NCBI RefSeq assembly: GCF_027474405.1 | Contig: NZ_CP114871.1 | Span: 3,481,001-3,545,000, forward strand | DNA: 64,000 nt | Source: Caulobacter sp. NIBR2454 | GTDB lineage: Bacteria; Pseudomonadota; Alphaproteobacteria; Caulobacterales; Caulobacteraceae | Reading direction: 5' to 3' | Shown: piece after piece, positions 18,575 to 21,976 of the stretch | Position numbering within the stretch: the stretch's first letter is position 1 | Layout of the letters: each line of letters opens with the position of its first letter | Made by a program: the position numbers and the translations under genes | Notes under the pieces: model-generated | Seen by the model: only the letters and a program-made list of their open reading frames with translations | What the model was told of the DNA's origin: nothing | Databases searched by the model: none

Positions 18575-18820
18575 GCGCGACGCCTCCCGATCTATCCGTT
18601 AGATATAATTCTCGAAATCTAACAATATCATCGATCCACGAACATTGTTACTCAGATACGGCGGCATCCCGATCAGATCGCCTTGCCGTCAGGTAAGCTT
18701 AATCTTCGACAACGCCGTCAATAATGACTCACGAGGTGGACATTCCGCCTCTCATTCTTGAAAACTCGCATTTTCCAAGCTTTGCATTACTTCATGTAGC
18801 GATCGATTACTGCTTGCACT

Positions 18821-18837
18821 CGCTTGGCCGCCAAGCG
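18821..18837. promoter_or_regulatory. 17-bp inverted repeat CGCTTGG-CCG-CCAAGCG
   Basis: Perfect 7-base arms with a 3-base centre, 58 bases upstream of the surface-protein start. It could be an operator or an mRNA hairpin. It is only four bases from a second dyad of the same size. Confidence 0.45.
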
Positions 18838-18841
18838 AAAT

Positions 18842-18858
18842 GTGACCGCCACGGTCAC
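18842..18858. promoter_or_regulatory. 17-bp inverted repeat GTGACCG-CCA-CGGTCAC
   Basis: Perfect 7-base arms with a 3-base centre, 37 bases upstream of the surface-protein start. The arms differ in sequence from the dyad at 18821-18837, so the two are not copies of one operator. Their equal size and adjacency suggest tandem leader hairpins or two different regulators. Confidence 0.45.
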
Positions 18859-18894
18859 GGGCGTTCCGCTTGACCAAGTCAGACGGAGCTTCCC

Positions 18895-21528
18895 ATGGCG
18901 ATCCCGACAACCACTGTCGTCACCGCGCAGTTCTCGGCCGACAGCGGGATTTCGAACACCGACCTGATCACCAATGTCGCTAGCCAGACGCTTTCGGGCA
19001 CGACCAGCACCAATCTTGTGGCGGGAGAGTCAGTCTACCTGTCGTTCAACAACGGCGGGTCCTGGAACCCGGCTACGACAAGCACGGGCTCGAACGCCTG
19101 GAGCTTGTCCGTAACGCTTGGCGGGTCCGGAACATTCCTGGCCGTTGTGCGCAACACCGACGGGGATTCGACGCAGCTTTCCACATCGTACGTGCTCGAT
19201 ACGACAGCGCCCTCAACCACGGCGGCTAGCCTGAGCCTTTCGGCCGATACCGGGACCTCATCGACGGACTTCGTCACAAAGACTGCCTCGCAAACCATCA
19301 GCGGCACGCTTTCGGCCAACCTGGCGGCGGACGAAACGGTTTGGGTCTCGGTGGACAATGGCGCCACATGGGCGTCGGCCTCCGCGTCGGTCGGATCGAG
19401 CGCCTGGAGTCTGGCGGGCGCCACCCTGGCGGGCTCGAACAGGATCGTCGCCAAGGTCATGGACAGCGCCGGCAACAGCGGCGCCGGCTACAGCTACGGC
19501 TATGTGCTGGACATCACAGCGCCAGCGACATCGGTCGCCAGCCTGAGGCTCTCGGCCGATACCGGCGTCAGCGCGCTTGATTTGGTGACCAAGACCGCGG
19601 CGCAAACCATCAGCGGCACGCTCTCGGCCAATCTGGCGGCGGGCGAAAGGGTGCTCGTATCCACCAACAACGGCGCCACCTGGGCCGAGGCCACAGCATC
19701 GGTCGGATCAAGCGGCTGGAGTTATGGCGGCGTGACCCTCACGGGCTCGGACACGATCCAGGTCCAGGTCGCCGACTCCGCCGGCAACGGCGGCGCCATC
19801 CTTAGCCAGGCCTATGTACTCGACACCACCGCGCCCACTATCGCCGTCACCTCCAACGTCTCGACCTTGAAAGCCGGCGAGACCGCGACAATCACCTTCA
19901 CCCTCAGCGAGGCCGACCACGGAAGCTTCACCATAGCGGACGCCGTGGTGTCGGGCGGCGTGCTGAGCGGCTTTTCGGGCTCCGGCTCGGTCTACACCGC
20001 AACCTTCACCCCGACCGCGGGGGTCAATGGGGGAACTGCCAGTATCACGGCTACGGCAAACAGCTATATCGACCTGGCGGGCAACTTCGGCGCTGGCGGC
20101 TCGCTGTCCCCGCTGACGTTCGACACCCTGGCGCCCAGCGCGCCCTCGACGCCCGATCTGTCGGCCGGCTCGGATACCGGCGCCTCAAACACTGACAACG
20201 TCACCAGCGACAGCACGCCCACCTTCAACGGCACGAGCGAGGCGAACGCCACGATCACGCTCTACGACACCGACGGCACGACAGAGCTTGGGACCACCAC
20301 CGCCTCGGCCATGGGCGCGTGGTCGATCACCGCTTCGACACTGTCGGCCGGCGCCCACACCCTCACAGCCAAGGCCGCCGACGCAGCCGGCAACGTCTCG
20401 ACGGCCAGCACCGGTCTGAGCATCACCATCGACCTGAGCACGCCGGCCGCTCCCAGCACCCCGGTGCTGAGCGTCGCCAGCGACACGGGCACCGTCGGTG
20501 ATGGCCAGACCGACACCACCACGCCCGTCATCACCGGAACAGCCAGCGCCAACGCCGTGGTCAAACTCTTCGACGGCTCGACCCTGGTCGGCTCGACCAC
20601 CGCCGATGGCGGCGGCGCCTGGAGCATCACCACCTCGACCCTGGCGGCCGGCGCTCACAACCTGACGGCCACCCAGACCAATCTCGCCGGCACGACCTCG
20701 GCCGCGAGCGCAGCGCTCGCCTTGACCATCGGAACCATCGCCCCGCCCGTGGATGAGACGCCGCCTGAACCGCCCGCCCCCGACTATACAGCGCCCGAAA
20801 TCCGCGAGAACTTCGCGGCGGCCGCCGGCTTGCAGCCCAACTCGCCCAAGACGACCATCGCGACCGTCACCCTGGCCGACGGCACGGTCGTGGCCAATCC
20901 AACCTATGAGACGGCCCTGCAGCTAAGCCAGCTGATCTTGCGCTTCGAGGCCGGCCTGATCAGCCGTGAGCGGCTGATCGACGAGGTTGTCGATCTGTCG
21001 GCGCCGACCTCTGGCGTAGCCTTGCAGGCCTATCAGTTCTTCACCGGCCTGGCGCCCAGCAAGGCGGGCTTGGCCTATCTGATCGACAGCCCCGCCAACG
21101 CCAATGACCTGACCGACGCCTACTACGCCCGCTTCAACGAGGTGAACCGCTTCATCAATTTCGCGGTCAGCCTTGGCGTCGAGGGCGAGGGTCGCGCCGC
21201 CTTCGAAGCCAAGTTCGGCGGCCTCGATTTCGCGGCCTCCGTACGCCTGGCCTACGACATGGTCATCGGATTGGACGCCGCGCGCACGGCCGGCGTCGAT
21301 GTGGACGCCGCCCTGGCGTGGATCTCCAGCCAGGAGAGCTATTTCGACCTTTTCGCGGGCTCGGACCTGGGCGGCAAGGCGGCCATGGTCGGCTACATCA
21401 TGCAGGCTGGCTTCGAGGCCCGGGTCGGCCGCTACTACGAGGCTAGCCACGACTTCCTCGAAGACGCCTTCGATGGAACGCCGACCTATCAGGTCGATCT
21501 TGTGGGCGGCCAGCACCTGGGCGGTTAG
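18895..21528 (+). CDS. Ig-like repeat surface protein with C-terminal RsaA-type (S-layer LPS-anchor-like) domain
   Basis: An 877-residue acidic protein with few basic residues in its first 640. It has six Ig-like repeats of about 100 residues, with boundaries marked by D-x-TAP-type linkers near 103-106, 207-210, 311-314, 411-414 and 514-517. Repeats 1-3 resemble each other (SADTG...TISGTLSANLAA), repeat 4 is distinct, and 5-6 share TPxLSxxSDTG. A proline-rich linker (615-633) leads to a domain at about 665-860 containing ALQAYQFFTGLAPSKAGL, NDLTDAYYARF and NRFINFAVSLG. From memory this closely matches residues ~75-150 of the Caulobacter S-layer protein RsaA, its O-polysaccharide-binding region. 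There is no Sec signal peptide, as in RsaA, so type I secretion is likely, but no RTX nonapeptides are seen. It is probably a surface adhesin or sheath protein. The Ig repeats are certain; the RsaA match is strong but not computed. Confidence 0.85.
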   Translation: MAIPTTTVVTAQFSADSGISNTDLITNVASQTLSGTTSTNLVAGESVYLSFNNGGSWNPATTSTGSNAWSLSVTLGGSGTFLAVVRNTDGDSTQLSTSYVLDTTAPSTTAASLSLSADTGTSSTDFVTKTASQTISGTLSANLAADETVWVSVDNGATWASASASVGSSAWSLAGATLAGSNRIVAKVMDSAGNSGAGYSYGYVLDITAPATSVASLRLSADTGVSALDLVTKTAAQTISGTLSANLAAGERVLVSTNNGATWAEATASVGSSGWSYGGVTLTGSDTIQVQVADSAGNGGAILSQAYVLDTTAPTIAVTSNVSTLKAGETATITFTLSEADHGSFTIADAVVSGGVLSGFSGSGSVYTATFTPTAGVNGGTASITATANSYIDLAGNFGAGGSLSPLTFDTLAPSAPSTPDLSAGSDTGASNTDNVTSDSTPTFNGTSEANATITLYDTDGTTELGTTTASAMGAWSITASTLSAGAHTLTAKAADAAGNVSTASTGLSITIDLSTPAAPSTPVLSVASDTGTVGDGQTDTTTPVITGTASANAVVKLFDGSTLVGSTTADGGGAWSITTSTLAAGAHNLTATQTNLAGTTSAASAALALTIGTIAPPVDETPPEPPAPDYTAPEIRENFAAAAGLQPNSPKTTIATVTLADGTVVANPTYETALQLSQLILRFEAGLISRERLIDEVVDLSAPTSGVALQAYQFFTGLAPSKAGLAYLIDSPANANDLTDAYYARFNEVNRFINFAVSLGVEGEGRAAFEAKFGGLDFAASVRLAYDMVIGLDAARTAGVDVDAALAWISSQESYFDLFAGSDLGGKAAMVGYIMQAGFEARVGRYYEASHDFLEDAFDGTPTYQVDLVGGQHLGG

Positions 21529-21532
21529 CGCC

Positions 21533-21976
21533 CTATCGGGCCTGACGACGACTGTCGATCAGGTCGCCGCGGCTGGCGGCGATGCCGTACTGGAAGCTCT
21601 TGGCGATCATATCGGCCCGCGCGCAGACAAGCTCGGCGGCGGGCTTGGGCCAAAGCTCGGCGGCGGTCGTCTTGAACAGCGCGAGCCACTGGCCAAAATG
21701 CTCAGCCTGAATCTGCGGCAGGGCGGCGTGGACCTGCATGGGCGCGCCGCTATAGCGGCCCGACGCCAGCAGCACCGAAGACCAGAAGTCACAAAGCTTG
21801 CTCAGGTGCTCGTCCCAATGGTCGCCGATCACCCCGTCGAAGATCGGCCCAAGAACGGCGTCGGCGCGCACCTTGGCGTAGAAGGCGTGAACCAGGTCCT
21901 CGATCATCGCCTCCGTGACGCCGACGGCGTAGCCGGGGGACAAGATTCTGCGGTGCTCCTGCCGATCCATGGTCAT
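21533..21976 (-). CDS. Group III truncated haemoglobin
   Basis: A 147-residue globin of the 2-over-2 fold, group III (Ctb-like). Recognisable segments are VHAFYAKVRADAVLGPIFDG (about 28-47), WDEHLSKLCDFWSSVLL (54-70) and YSGAPMQVHAALP (74-86), where the His is the expected proximal haem ligand, then HFGQWLALF (93-101). Family members bind oxygen or nitric oxide. The ATG at 21976 was chosen; another at 21970 differs by two residues. It converges on the surface-protein gene with four bases between stops. Confidence 0.9.
   Translation of the reverse strand: MTMDRQEHRRILSPGYAVGVTEAMIEDLVHAFYAKVRADAVLGPIFDGVIGDHWDEHLSKLCDFWSSVLLASGRYSGAPMQVHAALPQIQAEHFGQWLALFKTTAAELWPKPAAELVCARADMIAKSFQYGIAASRGDLIDSRRQAR

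Follow-up and report, generated by a model that had tools for sequence, protein, structure and literature searches.

Gene organization and domain architecture

The window analyzed here, a 64,000-nucleotide stretch of the genome of Caulobacter sp. NIBR2454, contains a forward-strand open reading frame (18895..21528) encoding an 877 aa protein in which Ig repeats are followed by a C-terminal RsaA_NTD (Pfam). Residues 1-612 (18895..20730, +) comprise six Ig-like repeats, supported by a full-length structure model and assigned by Pfam to Big_13 in five stretches and to Big_12 in one; the repeats also match the Ca_tandemer profile (NCBIfam NF033510) at 76.4 bits, against a cut-off of 50. The DNA holds a single 15-base tandem array, and recent duplication of DNA is thus not the origin of the Ig repeats. 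A Pro-rich linker, recognized in the sequence and predicted to be flexible (residues 613-633; 20731..20793, +; pLDDT <50), leads into the RsaA-type helical anchor domain with its N-terminal extension (residues 634-861; 20794..21477, +). The RsaA_NTD core (Pfam PF19198) spans residues 705-871 (21007..21507, +) and scores 166.6 bits against a Pfam cut-off of 27, with an E value of 6.6e-49 for the whole protein and of 2e-50 for the fragment 20881-21528 alone. By alignment, residues 725-748 (21067..21138, +) are the equivalent of the RsaA Ca2+-binding loop 77-100. The low-confidence tail (residues 862-877; 21478..21525, +; pLDDT <50) ends VDLVGGQHLGG and is a candidate type I export signal. The protein has a pI of 4.05 and no Cys. 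Pfam searches recognized no ligand-binding domain and no lattice-type RTX domain in it, and gave no M10 metalloprotease match at E ≤ 1. A promoter scan found none.

An earlier note on this DNA, made from the letters alone, had proposed six Ig-like repeats and a Pro-rich linker followed by a C-terminal anchor of the RsaA type. The Pfam and fold matches confirm this architecture; all of the RsaA motifs it named were found in the protein, and the profile search assigned the C-terminus to PF19198 and to no unrelated family. An Ig family is present in 14 of 30 homologues surveyed, which makes the window protein a member of a small family rather than a singleton.

The anchor domain and its relationship to RsaA and SapA

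Modelling of the C-terminal domain recovered the RsaA anchor fold, with the predicted match extending over nearly the whole anchor. No other convincing match to the domain was present in the Foldseek and VIA lists, where absence excludes nothing. In RsaA (PF19198; PDB 6t72) this domain is the O-antigen anchor of the Caulobacter S-layer and stands at the N-terminus, with an RTX lattice domain at the C-terminus, whereas in the window protein it is C-terminal and carried on Ig repeats in place of the lattice domain. According to passages of the structural study of RsaA (PMC6978808, Cell 2020), anchoring to the O-antigen involves Ca2+, which is carried by loop 77-100; the NTD is able to bind along the entire O-antigen, and adjacent anchors are in contact through an NTD:NTD pair, Asp30-Lys142.

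In the alignment, Asp731, Asp738 and Asp741 of the window copy correspond to RsaA Asp83, Asp90 and Asp93, all three being kept, and the RsaA D79 position is Ala. Asp90 and Asp93 are also kept in all eight rows of the clade to which the window copy belongs, while Asn and Ser occupy these positions in 40 and 42, respectively, of 64 C-terminal copies. The lattice contact residues are not kept, with Ser678 and Met789 at the positions of Asp30 and Lys142. Across 87 domains, K or R occurs at position 142 in 16 of 23 N-terminal copies (RsaA included) versus 8 of 64 C-terminal copies, and within the window's genome in 6/8 versus 0/18; this contrast amounts to two to three independent comparisons only, part of it being due to shared ancestry, and a sign test is not significant. 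The pattern fits a binder outside the lattice, and is no proof of one. Asp30 was considered as a marker of N-terminal copies and rejected, as it varies in both groups. The 87 rows are RsaA, 26 copies from the window's genome (fragment R27 omitted) and 60 of 215 matches from other genomes, the 60 having been hand-picked, not drawn at random, from 18 of the other 23 genomes with RsaA_NTD.

The earlier note was aware of no precedent for such a design. That claim does not hold: the C-terminal half of SapA, the S-layer-associated metalloprotease of C. crescentus, is described in passages of PMC3034196 as resembling the RsaA N-terminal region, and the SapA profile NF051884 meets the window anchor at profile positions 447-634 of 644. 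The score (113.1 bits against an equivalog cut-off of 1200) reflects the domain region only. Both SapA and the window protein are type I-style exoproteins with RsaA_NTD as their C-terminal part; the partner is an M10 protease in SapA and a set of Ig repeats in the window protein. The C-terminal arrangement is therefore already known from SapA. The features new in kind are that the partner is an Ig rod, that the genome holds so large a set of paralogues, and that the anchor is homologous to DUF4214 (see below). Ca_tandemer adhesins share the Ca2+-stabilised Ig repeats of the window protein, which differs from them in having RsaA_NTD as its end module.

A set of RsaA_NTD proteins in one genome

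The genome encodes 27 RsaA_NTD matches, all above the Pfam cut-off. Eight are N-terminal copies, with the domain starting at residue 55-69, and 18 are C-terminal, 17 of them with at most 17 residues after the domain and one (R07) with 49. The C-terminal anchor has among its partners an M10/serralysin-type protease in R01, R06, R07 and R09, FG-GAP repeats in R04 and R05, RTX repeats in R02, R03 and R26 (R26 also has a lipase-like stretch), a pectinesterase-like stretch in R20, and Ig repeats in R17 (the window protein), R22, R23 and R24. No second family was found in R11, R12 and R25, and R10 consists of nothing but the domain (195 aa). R01, R06 and R09 are the most SapA-like over their length in this genome, below the NF051884 cut-off. 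The fragment R27 (L056; G000:C1 3202735-3203217) matches profile positions 26-178; its open frame has 186 codons and a late first ATG.

Six of the N-terminal proteins (R08, R13, R15, R16, R18 and R19) are 662-672 aa long, three of them in tandem, and are encoded at G000:C1 376996-383457 (L039), 307107-309125 (L044), 2609281-2611287 (L050) and 2650331-2652319 (L048). These constitute several candidate S-layer proteins in a single genome, each shorter than RsaA (1026 aa). Elsewhere (L040 7452-13062; G000:C1 396451-402064) the consecutive C-terminal genes R02, R05 and R04 have nearly identical anchors and differing N-terminal parts (RTX, FG-GAP and FG-GAP). The neighbouring Ig-repeat genes R22 and R23 (L053) likewise have almost identical RsaA_NTD domains (end branches 0.006 and 0), a likeness that suggests that the anchor was copied recently or underwent gene conversion.

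When the 87 domains are placed on a quick maximum-likelihood tree, at least three changes between the N- and C-terminal ends are required, two of them forced by starred branches, and thus the module has moved more than once. The window copy falls in a C-terminal clade of eight rows (99*). The SapA-like R01, R06 and R09 fall in a separate clade of 53 rows (99*), 48 C-terminal and five N-terminal, where Asp90 and/or Asp93 are missing from 44 of the 48 C-terminal rows.

Candidate export signal, secretion genes and distribution

VDLVGGQHLG followed by 0-4 residues ends 11 of the 30 homologues (P0001-P0011), in which the partners are Ig repeats (nine) or PF12951 beta-strand repeats (two). Both domain and tail are conserved in P0002-P0011, at 73-82% identity over the anchor; the close homologue next in rank, P0012, has no such tail. 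An aromatic residue is present in the last 10 residues of 62/64 C-terminal copies, the window copy being without one. SapA, in the account given in parts of PMC3034196, is exported by a type I secretion system (T1SS) with no clear signal. Because the tail is kept on different partners and SapA lacks a clear signal, the C-terminal module may carry export and anchoring together. With regard to a Sec signal, a hydrophobicity window, the sole measure used, gives 1.43 for the window protein, against 2.22 for a porin-like neighbour and as much as 2.68 for a kinase-like one. All 27 RsaA_NTD frames in the genome have a pI of 4.05-4.81 and 25 of them have no Cys, the other two, R02 and R26, having two each. 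For 12 window neighbours compared, the pI is 4.99-9.89 and Cys is absent from four.

Among 18 matches in the genome to a PrtD-type T1SS ABC transporter, one gene is above the cut-off. It is adjoined by genes for HlyD- and TolC-family proteins, GDP-mannose 4,6-dehydratase (gmd) and a NeuD-type acetyltransferase, each of the four scoring above its NCBIfam threshold, and by a DegT-family aminotransferase gene. The gmd, NeuD-type and DegT gene set would fit synthesis of N-acetylperosamine.

RsaA_NTD occurs in 24 of 75 genomes of the genus, with 3-29 matches in each, in 26 of 249 genomes of a family sample and in one of 385 genomes of a class sample, that one being the window's own. For comparison, passages of PMC12700997 give S-layer genes in 7.8% of Caulobacteraceae species. 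A close RsaD orthologue (at least 71% identity) is present in 18 of the 24 RsaA_NTD-positive genus genomes versus 0 of the 51 negative ones, where the best among the matches listed reaches 43%; in nearly all genus genomes, 18 candidates were scored per genome. In the six positive exceptions, for which all candidates were scored, G070 carries a fragment at 68% and the remaining five show no candidate over 35%. Among these five, G069 and G073 are listed as 100% complete and carry four RsaA_NTD matches each. Either an assembly gap or another exporter would account for the lack of an RsaD-like gene in these two genomes.

Genomic site

In two relatives (G058 and G014) the flanks match the window (18577-21553 compared with L126 and L127) at 75-86% DNA identity, and a DUF4172-Fic gene stands in place of the Ig-repeat gene at the same site. 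The closest anchor matches in both genomes lie away from this site. An explanation from gene neighbourhood was considered and rejected, as the adjacent glycosyltransferase and YitT genes are kept in both genomes with the Fic gene instead. Since the flanking genes are kept without the Ig gene, they form no functional unit with it, and the neighbours give no support. The 12 window neighbours have no match in loci L001-L010, save one 59-residue hit in L004.

Homology of RsaA_NTD to DUF4214

With the Ig part alone as the query, 1418 relatives were found (7979 candidates scored). DUF4214 (PF13946) is present in 27 of the best 120 of these, the first at about rank 8 and the top few without it. Six of the 27 were scanned, and each proved to have DUF4214 close to its C-terminus, in one stretch or two. 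A W-D/N-F/M tail ends 22 of the 27; P0037, P0044, P0100, P0123 and P0124 end differently. The position of DUF4214 at the C-terminus of Ig-repeat relatives suggested that RsaA_NTD occupies the place of DUF4214. More broadly, exoproteins with protease, RTX, FG-GAP or Ig-repeat parts end in DUF4214 units in many bacteria, a partner set overlapping that of RsaA_NTD; among the best 120 of 325 DUF4214 proteins, 17 M10-type proteases and three FG-GAP proteins were counted by eye from the Pfam column.

RsaA_NTD was compared with DUF4214 profiles of 22, 42 and 213 rows. A narrow profile of 22 rows, chosen from the 27 Ig-DUF4214 proteins by leaving out the five with other ends, matched RsaA_NTD with a probability of only 3.8. 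A 42-row profile gave a probability of 64; one of 200 column permutations scored higher, at 131.3, an outlier. The 87 RsaA_NTD rows compared by hhalign with 213 DUF4214 rows, those of 227 with at least 100 columns and with three proteins flagged by Pfam as RsaA_NTD omitted, gave a probability of 85.6 (P 5.6e-6, score 40.4), against a permutation maximum of 22.1 (0/150 above) and a score of 8.0 for the reversed profile.

An RsaA_NTD HMM matched 58 of 120 DUF4214 proteins at E ≤ 1e-3 and 115 at E ≤ 1, versus none of 120 reversed and none of 120 shuffled sequences at the former threshold and two and one, respectively, at the latter. These test proteins, the best 120 of 325, include three flagged by Pfam as RsaA_NTD and are related to one another, so the 58 matches are not 58 independent events. 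Of the domain hits, 49 reach 0.01 or better, and every one of them overlaps a DUF4214 unit. In the opposite direction, a DUF4214 HMM matched eight of the 87 RsaA_NTD rows at E ≤ 0.01 and 43 at E ≤ 1, and one reversed row at E ≤ 1. The Pfam RsaA_NTD model scored 24.7-25.1 bits on the DUF4214 proteins P0178, P0253 and P0268, against its cut-off of 27. The Pfam DUF4214 model matched none of 11 RsaA_NTD rows at E ≤ 10, and RsaA_NTD is therefore a relative of the family and not a member. In the profile alignment, A-Y-Q-F-F-T-G-x-x-P-S-x-x-G-L of RsaA_NTD lies opposite L-Y-x-x-x-x-x-R-x-P-D-x-x-G-L of DUF4214, and RsaA_NTD differs by an 18-residue insert at about RsaA 94-111, which takes in the NRFINF motif and the last part of the Ca2+ loop. 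We conclude from these comparisons that RsaA_NTD is homologous to DUF4214, as a distant relative.

DUF4214 has no match in the window's genome. It is present at E ≤ 1e-3 in four of the 75 genus genomes, three of them over the cut-off and all three without RsaA_NTD. A genome of the same class (G281, loci L130-L157) has 28 DUF4214 matches, which parallels the 27 RsaA_NTD matches of the window's genome, and several of these proteins end in D-W-L-L or like tails. A PDB search returned no convincing DUF4214 structure, the best match being Glr2806 (chain 9k9w_M2; E 0.008), of a phycobilisome linker family. P0268 also weakly matches the phycobilisome linker family PF00427 (E 7.8e-4), and these weak matches may point to a wider superfamily.

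RsaA_NTD might further be a derived tandem DUF4214 with an insert beside the Ca2+/O-antigen loop, DUF4214 being a general export-linked surface-glycan anchor and the window protein the Caulobacter version of the Ig-DUF4214 exoproteins known from Massilia, Janthinobacterium and other bacteria, with the generic anchor swapped for the RsaA one. We advance this tentatively and with some doubt, because only 27 of the best 120 Ig-part relatives carry DUF4214 and because the insert covers only the loop end. In passages of two papers, DUF4214 is only presumed to be a surface anchor. In a literature search with most subscription papers outside its scope, no work among the matches listed mentions both DUF4214 and RsaA, and those on RsaA_NTD/PF19198 deal, by title, with S-layer structure or cryo-EM methods, with no family-level study among them.

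Discussion

We propose that the window protein is probably a surface rod exported by an RsaDEF-type T1SS and anchored to the O-antigen by its C-terminal RsaA_NTD; the tethered rod suggested in the earlier note is thus plausible, and that note is supported in its architecture, though not in its claim of no precedent. The product, with no evident Sec signal, would most likely leave C-terminus first through the RsaDEF-type system of the genome, directed by an export signal within the C-terminal module (tail ...VDLVGGQHLGG). RsaA_NTD would emerge first, fold in outside Ca2+ and bind an N-acetylperosamine-type O-antigen, after which the six Ca2+-stabilised Ig repeats would reach outward via the flexible linker, possibly in an adhesive role. 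As it has no lattice domain and no RsaA NTD:NTD salt bridge, the protein would be bound singly to O-antigen chains, under the S-layer units or in the gaps between them, as one of a set of exoproteins with a common RsaA_NTD anchor. This reading draws on the domain and fold matches, the kept loop aspartates, the replaced lattice contact residues, the T1SS gene with its neighbouring sugar genes, the co-occurrence of RsaD with RsaA_NTD, the acidic, Cys-poor frames, the conserved tail and the SapA precedent. It is weakened by the missing tail aromatic, the tail-less P0012, G069 and G073 with no RsaD-like gene above 35% identity, and the absence of the gene from this site in G058 and G014; as an export mark, the lack of Cys is itself weakened by the four neighbours that share it.

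Also against this reading, Gandham is said to have found, in 2012, SapA on the surface of cells without O side chains, so a C-terminal RsaA_NTD could attach to something else. Alternatively, the domain might serve mainly as an export module, or bind an outer-membrane ligand other than O-antigen, with the rod released or otherwise held. We consider this rather unlikely. The departure of SapA by T1SS with no clear separate signal (in passages of PMC3034196) speaks for it, as do the DUF4214 relatives that form the C-termini of Ig-repeat and protease exoproteins of other bacteria and the Asn/Ser at Asp90/Asp93 in most C-terminal copies, through which sugar and Ca2+ binding may differ. However, the window copy and all eight rows of its clade keep both aspartates, the fold match runs across nearly the whole anchor, and RsaA_NTD and the sugar genes co-occur in this genome.

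The absence of a lattice-type RTX domain and the loss of Asp30 and Lys142 make it improbable that the protein belongs to the S-layer, as another lattice-forming protein or as an accessory integrated in the lattice, even though the anchor is common to S-layer proteins and this genome has eight N-terminal-anchor copies, six of them of 662-672 aa; the position-142 contrast (16/23 against 8/64, in two to three independent comparisons) points the same way. That the gene is a recent, dispensable copy with little function, parked at a variable site, would agree with the Fic gene found there in G058 and G014 and with the location of their best anchor matches elsewhere, but is very hard to credit given an intact 877-aa frame and a domain and tail kept in ten homologues (P0002-P0011; 73-82% identity over the anchor).

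If the link to DUF4214 is right, the solved structure of the RsaA NTD on O-antigen would provide a testable mechanism for DUF4214. It would also make the Caulobacter S-layer anchor a display system, with up to 29 RsaA_NTD matches per genus genome, among which there may be competitors of RsaA for O-antigen. A module at the C-terminus that may serve in both export and anchoring is of use for living-material engineering.
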